A stretch of DNA of 31,320 nucleotides, from positions 1 through 31,320 of the IMG/VR virus record IMGVR_UViG_3300042691_034420. One strand, given 5' to 3'. The stretch comes from a virus. How positions within the stretch are numbered: position 1 is the first letter of the stretch; every line of letters starts with the position of its first letter. The translations under genes and the position numbers were made by a program. Shown here one piece after another: positions 3,972-30,342 of the stretch. The notes beneath the pieces are model-generated. The model was not told where the DNA came from and did not search any database. It worked only from the letters and a program-made list of their open reading frames with translations.

Positions 3972-4244
3972 TCAGAACAGATCATCTGAAGAGCCAGAGC
4001 TGCTGCCAGCTTCTTCATTGCGCCAGAAGCTGCTATAAGCCTTGGGCGAGTCCTGCATTTTATTGACAGTCACTTGCCCTTTGTAATGGGGGGCAGTGTC
4101 CTTATCACGCTTGTCATTGTTCCACAGGGCCACGCGGAAGGAATAGTTTCCTTGAGCGTTGGGGCCTTGCTTCTTAGCAGCGTTCAGAATGTCGGAAGTG
4201 AGATCGACGGTGCCGCTAAACACGGGAAGATTGCCAGAAGGCAT
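3972..4244 (-). CDS. Small protein with SSB-like acidic tail, 90 aa
   Basis: The protein begins MPSGNLPVFSGTVDLTSDIL and contains NYSFRVALWNNDKRDKDTAP, a beta-rich stretch that would suit an OB fold. It ends GSSSGSSDDLF, an acidic C-terminus with a final phenylalanine similar to the protein-interaction tail of bacterial SSBs (DDDIPF). It lies directly downstream of the exonuclease and annealing-protein genes, where an SSB is often found. A single-stranded DNA-binding role is inferred from the tail and neighbours. The frame is also open upstream of the ATG without a good start. I cannot name a family. Confidence 0.6.
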   Translation of the reverse strand: MPSGNLPVFSGTVDLTSDILNAAKKQGPNAQGNYSFRVALWNNDKRDKDTAPHYKGQVTVNKMQDSPKAYSSFWRNEEAGSSSGSSDDLF

Positions 4245-4366: not shown

Positions 4367-5131
4367 TCAAGCGCCCCTGTCCATAGAAATTGTTAAGGGG
4401 CGTCCGCCTGGGTAGTGCTCGAAGAAGAACTGCTGCACCTTCTGTACCATGATGCCTGCTTGCATGGCAAGCTCTCCCGCTGAAAGGCTCACAATTTGCG
4501 CCTCTTGGGAATGGCCAGTATCAGGATCATGGATGGCAATGGCACAATGCGCCTCGTTCACCTCGATGTCATACATCTGCTCAATGGCCTGTACGTAGGC
4601 ACCAAGCTGCATGCGATAATCGGCCAGTTGTGTATCAGGCTTTTCCTTGTAGCTTGTCTTCCAATCAAGCAAGGCATAAGCGCCGCTGTTCATTTTGGCA
4701 AGCATATCAAACGTGCCTGAATAGCCAATTTCTTGCGCTGGATCATACCAAGCAATGGCACTTTCCACAAGCAATGGACTATCAACGCGCTCAAGAAAGC
4801 TCATGATGCTTTCAAAATAGGGCACGTAATTTTCATGGGAATCGAGATGGCATTGAATGTCTTCTCCATTCCATAGATCTTCTAGAACACCGTGAAGCCA
4901 ATTGCCTCGATCCACAGCATTACGAGTGCGACGATTAGCTTCTTCATCGCCCACCTTCTTGCGCCAGTTCATTAGCGCTGCAATTTTGCCAGGCGGAGAA
5001 CACGCGCTCGCAATAGTTGTCACAGAGGGCAAAACATACCCTTCGGGAACATTGGGAAAATCGTTCAGCAGATAGTAACGCTTTTTCTGAATTTGGAGCC
5101 GGTTGGGCTCGTAGCGGGGAAATGCTGGCAT
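4367..5131 (-). CDS. PD-(D/E)XK exonuclease (RecB/Cas4-like)
   Basis: The protein is 254 aa from ATG 5131; a GTG at 5167 would add 12 residues. The N-terminal segment VLPSVTTIASACSPPGKIAA and RGNWLHGVLEDLWNG (the motif I H) are followed by GYSGTFDMLAKM (motif II D), ALLDWKTSYKEK (motif III D-x-K) and QLGAYVQAIEQ (motif IV Q). This is the order in RecB-type nuclease domains of phage alkaline exonucleases. With the annealing protein encoded upstream it would form an exonuclease/annealase recombination pair acting at double-strand ends. The frame +1 to its stop stays open and protein-like to 4255 (see findings). Confidence 0.88.
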   Translation of the reverse strand: MPAFPRYEPNRLQIQKKRYYLLNDFPNVPEGYVLPSVTTIASACSPPGKIAALMNWRKKVGDEEANRRTRNAVDRGNWLHGVLEDLWNGEDIQCHLDSHENYVPYFESIMSFLERVDSPLLVESAIAWYDPAQEIGYSGTFDMLAKMNSGAYALLDWKTSYKEKPDTQLADYRMQLGAYVQAIEQMYDIEVNEAHCAIAIHDPDTGHSQEAQIVSLSAGELAMQAGIMVQKVQQFFFEHYPGGRPLTISMDRGA

Positions 5132-5170
5132 TTGGAGGGAGGCTAGGCATAGATCGTAACAGGCCACTGT

Positions 5171-5521: not shown

Positions 5522-5729
5522 CCATGGTCGCCATCGCAGACATTATCGAAGTCTCAAAGAAACCGCAGGCCAAAACAAACTGCTTGAAATGCTCGACAAT
5601 TTCAGGACAGTAGATGTTATGGAACGAATAGGAAACTTTTGTTTCTCCTTCTTCGTAAAGAAAAGTGAAACGGCTCATGGGACTATCAATGAAAGGATTG
5701 CCAGAATTGACAGGGTAAGGATTAGGCAT
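5466..5729 (-). CDS. Hypothetical protein, 87 aa
   Basis: Begins MPNPYPVNSGNPFIDSPMSR and continues RFTFLYEEGETKVSYSFHNI, a beta-strand pair, then a helical part (EIVEHFKQFVLACGFFETSI) and a charged end. The composition is that of a small folded alpha/beta protein. It is the gene immediately downstream of the annealing protein in the operon, 34 nt after the end of the out-of-frame extension described there. It overlaps the cysteine-rich gene by 56 nt. I do not recognise a family. Confidence 0.7.
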   Translation of the reverse strand: MPNPYPVNSGNPFIDSPMSRFTFLYEEGETKVSYSFHNIYCPEIVEHFKQFVLACGFFETSIMSAMATMVEEYETMEEKRAQSLFSD

Positions 5730-5762
5730 GTGAAAGTAACGAGAAGAAACAGGCCAAGGGGA

Positions 5763-5881
5763 TCATTGGCCAAATAGCTTGGGAGGAAGCTCAACAACGG
5801 GAAGAAAGTCATCATCAATGCAAACAGTGCCAGCAAAGGCCCGCGCTAAGCGGGCCGCCGCTAGGTCTATTTCTTTTTTGC
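5763..5881 (-). other. Candidate -1 ribosomal frameshift region and trans-frame extension
   Basis: The annealing-protein gene ends GCA AAA AAG AAA TAG. The heptamer A AAA AAG (5879-5873) is the most efficient bacterial -1 slippery sequence and sits in the correct phase. A slip would continue through GAA ATA GAC CTA... for about 36 residues, containing GTVCIDDDFLPVVELPPKLF, to a TGA at 5765-5763. This frame has no ATG, GTG or TTG of its own. A 7-bp GC stem-loop (GGCCCGC/GCGGGCC, 5856-5838) lies 16 nt downstream of the heptamer. That spacing is longer than usual, and the hairpin could instead be a weak terminator. Confidence 0.45.
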
Positions 5882-6805
5882 TACGAAAGCCTTCATCCCC
5901 TCAATGATGGCGGTAGTGTCTTCGAGCCCGCGAACAAGATTGATTTCTTCTGTCATTTCAGCTTTGGTAATGACAATTTCTTCTTGTTTGGCCCATAGAG
6001 TCATCATTGATGCGACGACATTTCCAAAGGCTTGCCAGCTCTTCACTTCCGTGGCACGTGCTAGGCCAATGCTTTCAAGAGCAGCTTTGCCTGCCGCCAT
6101 GGAAGCCTTCTCGTCTAGATAGCCGAGGGGATTGGCTTTGCACACTGCTGTAAGAGCTGCCTTTGGATCGAAGGGCTCAGCGGCCCCTGTATCAGCGGCG
6201 GGAGCAGTCCCTTCGCTTCCAGCAGCAGCAGCGCTTGCCTTAGGGGCAGCCTTAGTGCGTGCAGGCGCCTTGGGCGTGTCCTGCTGCAGCTTTGGCGCTT
6301 CTTCCTTAGGGATGTCCTCTCCGGCATAGAGCCGAAGACCAAGGCCCGTGAACGTAGCGATGGCCTTGACGCTCGCACGTTGGATGTTGTCAGAAATGGC
6401 ACGACCATCAAGCTGTTGAATGGAATTGTGCTTACGGTCCATCACGGGGAATACCAGCGCAGGCGTGCGCTTGATTCCATCAGTGAGGTAGGGGCGAAGG
6501 ATGAAGGCACCGGGCTCGCCAAATACGGGCCAGCCAATAGTTTTCTCTTCAAAGGCCACAAACAGCGTCGGGAAATGCTCCTTCAAATAGCGAAAGGCAA
6601 ACGGCCACGACAGATAGGACAAGCCTTTGTAGTCCTTTTCAATATGGGGGCCAATGTCAGGCGTGTCGTAAGCAGCTTTGAAAGCTTCAGCGCTAATCTC
6701 CAGCGGCGTGAAGACGCCGTTATAACGGTCCATCATTGCTTGTTTTGCGGAGTCTTCCATGCTGGAAAAGTCGGAGGGGGAATAGGTGAGGATAGTGTGG
6801 TTCAT
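5867..6805 (-). CDS. Single-strand DNA annealing protein (DUF1071/Sak3-like)
   Basis: A 312-aa protein. The core matches DUF1071: GLSYLSWPFAFRYLKEHFP (about residues 61-79), ALVFPVMDRKHNSI, and IQRASVKAIATFTGLGLRLY followed by AGEDIP (about residues 142-167). This family contains phage single-strand annealing recombinases. A low-complexity Pro/Ala/Lys linker (about 170-215) leads to a helical C-terminal domain. The gene heads the recombination module, with the PD-(D/E)XK exonuclease three genes downstream. Its 3' end carries an A AAA AAG slippery heptamer that may allow an alternative, longer C-terminus. Annealing activity is inferred from the family. Confidence 0.88.
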   Translation of the reverse strand: MNHTILTYSPSDFSSMEDSAKQAMMDRYNGVFTPLEISAEAFKAAYDTPDIGPHIEKDYKGLSYLSWPFAFRYLKEHFPTLFVAFEEKTIGWPVFGEPGAFILRPYLTDGIKRTPALVFPVMDRKHNSIQQLDGRAISDNIQRASVKAIATFTGLGLRLYAGEDIPKEEAPKLQQDTPKAPARTKAAPKASAAAAGSEGTAPAADTGAAEPFDPKAALTAVCKANPLGYLDEKASMAAGKAALESIGLARATEVKSWQAFGNVVASMMTLWAKQEEIVITKAEMTEEINLVRGLEDTTAIIEGMKAFVAKKK

Positions 6806-22694: not shown

Positions 22695-22871
22695 GAACCG
22701 GCTGGAAAACATATTATTTAAGGCACGGCTGGTTTTTGGCTTGTTTGAGAACCAGCCAGAAAATGGATTGTTTCAGAAAAAAATTAGAACCGGCTGGAAA
22801 ACGGATTGTTGAGAGAAAATTTGGAACCGGCTGGAAAACGGATTGTTTGAGAACCGGCTGGTTTTCGGCTT
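22695..22871 (+). repeat. Tandem repeat family A (GAACCGGCTGGAAAACGGA)
   Basis: Five copies, some diverged, of a unit resembling GAACCGGCTGGAAAACGG plus ATTGTTT, at about 22695, 22749, 22787, 22824 and 22851. Copy 2 reads GAACCAGCCAGAAAA. Copy 5 ends in GGTTTTCGG, and GGCTGGTT (22728-22735) can pair with AACCAGCC (22750-22757). The array begins 2 nt after the homing-nuclease stop codon. Confidence 0.85.
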
Positions 22872-22897
22872 CTTTCATACCATTTCATAACGCTGCC

Positions 22898-22957
22898 GTT
22901 TTATGCGTCAAGCCGCATTATGGGGTTATGCGCCTGGAGGCATTATGGGGTTATGCG
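22898..22957 (+). repeat. Tandem repeat family B (GCATTATGGGGTTATGCG)
   Basis: Two perfect 18-bp copies at 22915-22932 and 22940-22957, period 25 bp, with a partial copy (TTTTATGCGTC) at about 22900. Each copy can fold through GCAT/ATGC ends. Confidence 0.85.
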
Positions 22958-22990
22958 TCCCGAAGCATAGCCGAATTCTCTACTCTTACT

Positions 22991-23143
22991 GTGGCGGCCC
23001 TAGGTGATGCCTACCCTTCCGCCTTAGGTGATGCCTACTTGTGCGGGCCTTAGGTGATGCCTACTTGTGGTCGCCAGTTCTTTACCCTTACCCTGCCGCG
23101 CCAGTTCTTTACCCTTGCCCGTGGCGGCCTTAAGTGATGCTCA
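22991..23143 (+). repeat. Repeat families C (TAGGTGATGCCTA) and D (GCCAGTTCTTTACCCTT)
   Basis: Family C: an inverted-repeat 13-mer TAGG-TGATG-CCTA at 23001, 23025 and 23051, with a diverged copy at 23131, each preceded by a GC-rich GCGGCC-type sequence. Family D: GCCAGTTCTTTACCCTT at 23073-23089 and 23100-23116, period 27 bp, inserted between C copies 3 and 4. No protein frame in this block looks real. Confidence 0.85.
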
Positions 23144-23539
23144 CCGTGACCGATAGTTTGCAACTCTATCGGCGGCGGATTGCGCAGCAGTAGCCTACCC
23201 TCACTGTTTGGCGCTGTTTGTCGCTTACTGCGCGGCACTAAATATAAACATTTCAAATTGTAACGCTGCCCGCGATTCTCACCCGTCCCATGGTATGGGC
23301 GCTGATTGTTGCGGATTGTTGCAACGGTTGACCTATGGGCGGCTGCCATGGTACGCGCGTGCGCGTTCATCTCTTTAGTTCGGATGTTGCGAGCATCGCG
23401 CGGCCTGGTACCATGCCGCAACGCTTAACACCAGTGGACGGTTTGCCAAACCGCACACTATGCAAGGCCGTTGAAATTTGGCAGGATGCATGCATCGGGC
23501 GGGAGCGATTCCACCGACCCTCTCCAAACATTCCGCAGC
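23144..23539. other. Noncoding stretch before the gp88 island
   Basis: No convincing gene is visible in these roughly 400 bp. It is GC-rich with short echoes such as GATTGTTGC twice (23303, 23314), a CCCATGGTATGGG inverted repeat (23287-23299) and CCATGGTAC at 23347. A CTAAATA heptamer occurs at 23238-23244. With the repeats to its left it forms about 850 bp without genes, unusual in this compact genome. Confidence 0.6.
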
Positions 23540-30184: not shown

Positions 30185-30269
30185 GATGGTTCCCGATGAT
30201 GCTGGTCCCGTTCCGTACCAGCCAGTCATGCGCCCCTTGCGGGGTGAACGTATCATCAGTGTAGCAAAG

Positions 30270-30342
30270 TGCCCGAAGCAGGATTCGAACCTGCGCTGGA
30301 GCGATTTTAAGTCGCTTGTCTCTTCCGCTGGACTATTCGGGC
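30270..30342 (-). tRNA. tRNA-Leu (UAA anticodon), short variable loop
   Basis: Read on the minus strand: acceptor GCCCGAA/TTCGGGC (7 bp), TA at positions 8-9, a 3-bp D stem GTC/GAC with GG in the D loop, anticodon stem AGCGA/TCGCT with loop CTTAAAA (anticodon UAA), a 5-nt variable loop CCAGC, T arm GCAGG-TTCGAAT-CCTGC, and discriminator A (30270). CCA is not encoded. The anticodon reads UUA leucine codons. Bacterial tRNA-Leu normally has a long variable arm, so this is an atypical class I form. Confidence 0.9.

Follow-up and report, generated by a model that had tools for sequence, protein, structure and literature searches.

The mRNA of an SSAP_Sak/DUF1071 annealase from a cyanophage-like virus most likely contains a signal for programmed -1 ribosomal frameshifting, by which a minority long form of the protein with a tail for a partner would be made; we put the probability of this reading at about 0.9. 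Frameshifting itself appears nearly certain from the comparative sequence data. The signal, its phase, the RNA structure behind it and the coding constraint on the -1 frame all emerge from the comparison of homologous genes, which points to slippage during translation as the probable event.

The annealase gene and its product

The window, that is the whole stretch of DNA analysed here, corresponds to an IMG/VR virus record and is 31,320 bases long. On its minus strand, positions 5867..6805 code for the annealase of 312 aa, the frame of which is called the 0-frame in the following. The protein matches the SSAP_Sak profile PF06378 (E 4.6e-19, 68.9 bits at a cut-off of 22.3) and, over nearly its full length (residues 16–311), phrog_8492, 'Sak-like ssDNA annealing protein' (E 8.9e-47). 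Furthermore, its sequence matches the solved DUF1071 protein 8qe9 (E 1.6e-5), an entry made up of 34 chains of one relative. By these matches the gene product is assigned to the SSAP_Sak/DUF1071 annealases, with annealing and the formation of rings or filaments as putative activities. The nearest isolate is the Synechococcus phage S-CBS4 (61% identity), and we infer the window's own host from this relationship.

The annealase consists of a core (about residues 51–177), an Ala/Pro-rich linker and a helical C-terminal domain (about 211–312). In the AlphaFold model the C-terminal domain, residues 211–312, is all helical with a pLDDT of 85–91, and its last helix (297–311) stops at the Lys-Lys of the slip site. 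Since the overall pLDDT is 58 and structure comparison of the model gave no match at E <= 0.001, only this confident C-terminal domain was used.

Conservation of the slippery heptamer

Read on the minus strand, the 3' end of the annealase gene is GTA GCA AAA AAG AAA TAG. Direct reading thus places the heptamer A AAA AAG (5879-5873) in the phase required for -1 slippage, exactly as a previous sequence-only reading had stated. The same reading had cautioned that Lys-Lys codons create this heptamer by chance, an objection that does not survive the comparison with relatives. These were collected by seven viral-contig scans and one genome-contig scan, reaching to about 44–53% identity, and after the removal of identical DNA 143 distinct extension sequences remained. 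All 143, without exception, hold a slippery heptamer of the form X XXY YYZ in the -1 phase, located 0 or 3 nt ahead of the 0-frame stop, and keep the -1 frame open behind it. In the control, which comprised four other gene types from the same loci, a heptamer was present within the last two codons in only 1 out of 384 gene ends. Within the SSAP genes, Lys-Lys doublets at other places are never written as A AAA AAG (0 of 47), whereas the terminal doublet of the A-type always is (84 of 84). At synonymous sites the annealase genes have diverged, and conserved residues show a mean of about 20 third-base changes over the tree.

Two types of heptamer occur among the 143 sequences, A AAA AAG in 101 and G GGA AAG in 42. 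The latter is found instead of A AAA AAG, with unchanged phase, in a distant subclade which turned up in a search begun from the extension alone. Therefore, it is the slippery function that appears to be conserved and not the letters. Together with CCCAAAG, both heptamers are the most efficient ones in E. coli when combined with stimulators (PMC4066793). An upstream Shine-Dalgarno stimulator is not conserved and is absent in 82 of the 143 sequences.

The only relatives without the trait are three Sak proteins from Clostridia MAGs (L181–L183), which have neither heptamer nor extension; they share ~31% identity, and the sampling jumps to this value from the range of about 44–53%. Thus, the trait seems to be confined to this branch of annealases. 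Two GTDB MAG contigs labelled Rhodobiaceae and Verrucomicrobia (L179 and L180) also hold this cyanophage-type annealase. These are probably viral contigs that were binned with bacteria, and their labels were not taken as hosts.

Runs of A can slip RNA polymerase as well. A second product that arises by transcriptional slippage at the A run, a process treated for bacteria in PMC1088944, is nevertheless extremely unlikely here. The main form of the site stops at six A and then always has a G, even though with the synonymous codon AAA the run would be longer and more prone to slip. There is no run above three in the G GGA AAG form, which argues against slippage of the polymerase, and the codon phase is always that of tandem tRNA slippage. 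Tandem slippage of the ribosome fits all observations.

A covarying hairpin downstream of the heptamer

The heptamer is followed by a candidate stimulatory hairpin (5830..5864, minus strand), folded by RNAfold as one hairpin of 14 bp in total. A lower stem of 7 bp (5864-5858 with 5836-5830, CUAGCRG/UUGCUGG) and an apical stem of 7 bp (5856-5850 with 5844-5838, GGCCCGC/GCGGGCC) are separated by a 1x1 mismatch and closed by the 5-nt loop UUAGC. The GC-rich 7-bp hairpin recognized before corresponds to the apical stem and stands as such; its size had been underestimated, as the lower stem is added past the one mismatch. Pairing consequently begins 8 nt after the heptamer (spacer 5872-5865) and not after the 16 nt given previously, which removes the worry about a long spacer. 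In the relatives the spacer is 8 nt, or 5 nt where the stop directly adjoins the heptamer. The structure thus lies at the distance of about 5–9 nt that goes with programmed -1 frameshifting.

The window hairpin has a folding energy of -29.3 kcal/mol compared to -17.8 for shuffles (z -3.9), and z is below -2 for about 87% of the 143 sequences. Among 54 aligned sequences, 95.9% of the cells in the hairpin columns are paired, compared to 38–51% in slid controls. In this set both sides have changed in 7 of the 14 pairs, and 49 compensatory cells were observed versus 10.5 in shuffles; pairs of the apical stem switch from C-G to G-C, U-A or A-U among the relatives. The RNAalifold consensus retains the apical stem only, so the evidence for the lower stem comes from single-sequence folds and pair counts. 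Conservation of the hairpin, which was to be looked for in homologous phages, was thus found in the form of covariation; around one sequence in ten (L247, L169, L066, the group L254–L269, and L288) has a weak hairpin or none. The extension is intact in all of these. Therefore, it appears to be conserved as a protein, and RNA structure alone is insufficient as an explanation.

Coding constraint on the extension

The -1 frame extension (5763..5873, minus strand) has 36 codons plus TGA. In the window it reads EIDLAAARLARAFAGTVCIDDDFLPVVELPPKLFGQ*, running to 5763, and holds no ATG, GTG or TTG, in full agreement with the about 36 open codons without a start codon that were noticed initially. The predicted frameshift product is of 311 + 36 = 347 aa. 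In close and distant homologues alike the frame is conserved and free of stops, with the consensus [IV]DLAAARLARAFAGTxCxDxDxxP. Numbered from the heptamer, Asp5, Ala7, Ala9, Phe15, Gly17 and Pro27 are invariant or nearly so, with codons that vary synonymously; in the wider sequence set a few of these six residues vary.

A bias towards synonymous change had been named as one of the marks by which a translated extension should be recognizable in an alignment of homologues. Indeed, third positions change most: parsimony assigns 130/73/259 changes to positions 1/2/3 of the -1-frame codons in the extension core, the pattern being of the same kind as in the annealase's own frame (617/422/1749). The chi-square p of about 2e-26 for this codon-position bias is indicative only, because the test treats changes as independent and the region is also under the constraint of the hairpin.

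Of 112 sequences, 84 are free of ATG, GTG and TTG in the open part of the -1 frame as far as the core, which makes independent initiation unlikely. This bears on the possibility that the extension is a separate small gene with its own, non-standard start, or is translated by ribosomes that re-initiate behind the annealase stop. In most sequences the codon that overlaps this stop is ATA or GTA, the arrangement of stop and start resembles coupling, and a standard start does occur within the first six codons in 10–11 of the 112. A separate gene would, however, give no reason why the slippery heptamer is invariant in its phase or why it was exchanged for another slippery heptamer, and we consider this explanation very improbable.

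Taken alone, the extension is predicted to be helical over residues 2–14. It gave no match to phage records by tblastn, only short matches to designed proteins in the PDB and nothing significant in Pfam and PHROGs, and no in-frame fusion of it to an annealase or to another protein was found among the confirmed extension loci. As far as these collections are concerned, it represents a new peptide family. The extension predicted for S-CBS4 is VDLAAALLARAFAGTVCADADDNPLTESPWTT, from which the tryptic peptides VDLAAALLAR and AFAGTVCADADDNPLTESPWTT would be expected. The S-CBS4 record annotates the short annealase form only, an example of the incomplete annotation that would apply to the annealases of this widespread virus group.

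Overlapping and neighbouring genes

The gap behind the annealase gene had been described as otherwise empty. This has to be corrected, as a conserved ORF for a small single-TM protein of 45–46 aa (5675..5815, minus strand; ATG at 5815 or 5812; ..PLLSFLPSYLANDPLGLFLLVTFTCLILTLSILAILSLIVP) overlaps the 3' half of the extension as well as the start region of the next gene. Its product holds the motif LANDPLGLFLL. The ORF is a re-opening of the 0 frame past the annealase stop, with its ATG inside Asp codons of the extension, and both frame and ATG are conserved in most close relatives. In the close clade, this overlap accounts for part of the conservation of LPPxLFGE. In S-CBS4, L053 and L071 the membrane-protein ORF is absent; there the extension has another end (PWTT) but retains its first 25 residues. 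The extension core is therefore independent of this ORF. That one of the two C-termini is acidic, as proposed from the sequence, holds only loosely: acidic residues are present, but they belong to the variable tail, and their codons coincide in part with another ORF's start codon.

These overlaps are also what might be expected if frameshifting were real and mainly carried ribosomes to the next gene by translational coupling, the tail being a by-product. In many loci, and often in the G GGA AAG group, the extension ends on a stop that shares bases with the next ORF's ATG (ATGA), and the extension of the close clade runs over the start of the membrane-protein ORF. However, even in loci that lack the downstream ORF or have another one in its place (S-CBS4, L251–L253), the first 20 residues of the extension stay conserved while their codons vary synonymously, and we judge coupling as the main purpose to be unlikely.

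Further downstream on the minus strand, the window holds a gene for a PD-(D/E)XK exonuclease (4367..5167; PF12705, phrog_298), the likely recombination partner, and one for a small SSB-like protein of 90 aa with the C-terminal tip SSDDLF (3972..4244), a candidate partner. The latter has no Pfam or PHROG match, and its assignment as SSB-like is based only on the acidic tip and the position between exonuclease and dCTP deaminase. As in exonuclease-annealase two-component recombinases, the exonuclease gene is found alongside the annealase, downstream of it, in 107 out of 107 loci with at least 2 kb of downstream sequence. A homologue of the SSB-like gene occurs in 106 of these and other neighbour genes in 44–57. 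Exonuclease and SSB-like genes are a conserved module anyway and hence do not single out the extension.

Among other features of the window, there is a single tRNA, tRNA-Leu with anticodon UAA (30269-30342, minus strand). At 22695-23145 several unrelated short tandem repeats are clustered within 450 nt, with units of about 37, 25 and 25–26 nt in 3–4 imperfect copies each.

Proposed mechanism and role of the tail

Most ribosomes would stop right after the Lys-Lys and release the 312-aa annealase. A fraction would be held up by the hairpin 8 nt further on while their tRNAs occupy A AAA AAG or G GGA AAG; these would shift back by one base in tandem, and translation of another 36 codons would yield the 347-aa form. 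In the model the extension would begin exactly at the end of the last helix of the C-terminal domain and would contribute one more helix (consensus DLAAARLARAFAG) together with a short hydrophobic stretch and a tail that is acidic. Annealase rings or filaments would then contain a minority of long subunits, the tail of which may contact a partner, be it the exonuclease, the SSB-like protein or a host replication protein, and slippage would set the ratio of plain to partner-binding subunits. Binding of a partner is the role that we favour for the tail, in view of the contacts made by the C-terminal domain of lambda Red-beta and of the constant presence of the exonuclease and SSB-like genes in the loci analysed. 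It is plausible that the two C-termini of the annealase have different partners.

Alternatively, the extension may alter the annealase itself, for instance by capping rings or filaments or by tuning the release of DNA, without a phage partner. This is possible, though we are inclined to doubt it: the extension prolongs the final helix of the C-terminal domain, and its Ala-rich, amphipathic character would suit packing between subunits, but the variable tail with its acidic residues is more reminiscent of an exposed ligand.

Following the favoured reading of a partner-binding tail further, we tentatively suggest that throughout a large family of cyanophage-like viruses frameshifting might fix the share of annealase subunits that carry a so far unrecognised partner-binding domain, in which case the composition of rings or filaments would be set at translation. 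If true, this would be one of the means by which an annealase of many subunits could cooperate with an exonuclease of three.

Comparison with known systems

In the literature searched, which was largely open-access, no description of frameshifting in an annealase was found. Nor did it turn up under recombination or annealing terms in two broad treatments, PMC10885494 and the initial part of PMC5009743. Thus, the mechanism is known, and its use in an annealase is new as far as literature was found. Among phages, the frameshifts that are well known belong to tail assembly genes, whereas the conserved one described here is found in a recombination annealase.

The annealase case resembles the -1 frameshift of E. 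coli dnaX (tau/gamma) in the heptamer A AAA AAG, in the downstream hairpin at a short spacer and in the two products made of an oligomer-forming protein of replication or recombination (PMC7282821, PMC5600365). It differs in that the frameshift product of dnaX is the shorter form and that of the annealase the longer one, and in that dnaX has a stimulating upstream Shine-Dalgarno element, none being conserved in the annealase genes.

The phage tail assembly chaperones (lambda gpG/gpGT) likewise involve a phage gene, a -1 slip near the 0-frame stop and a longer minor form. Lambda gpG/gpGT uses G GGA AAG. The tail assembly chaperone of AH2 uses AAAAAAG (PMC3483164), and the heptamers of these two are the same two types as in the annealase family. 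In contrast to the chaperones, the annealase gene is an early recombination gene, and its extension of ~35 residues has no similarity that we could find to gpT. Insertion sequences of the IS3 family (IS911 and others) likewise pair heptamers of the type X XXA AAG with a structure on the 3' side (PMC4066793), but there the fusion joins two large transposase ORFs.

With regard to the protein, the closest likeness is to lambda Red-beta, in which a small helical C-terminal domain also follows the annealase core and mediates protein contacts; residues 178–261 of Red-beta bind lambda Exo and possibly SSB (PMC9512822). Structure comparison gave no significant fold match, and homology of the two C-terminal domains is thus only a possibility. 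In that system it is an open question by what arrangement the dodecameric annealase and the trimeric exonuclease join in a 1:1 complex (PMC9512822), and a tail present on only some of the subunits would offer a natural handle on this stoichiometry. Whereas Red-beta has one C-terminus, the annealase domain described here would exist with or without an additional tail.
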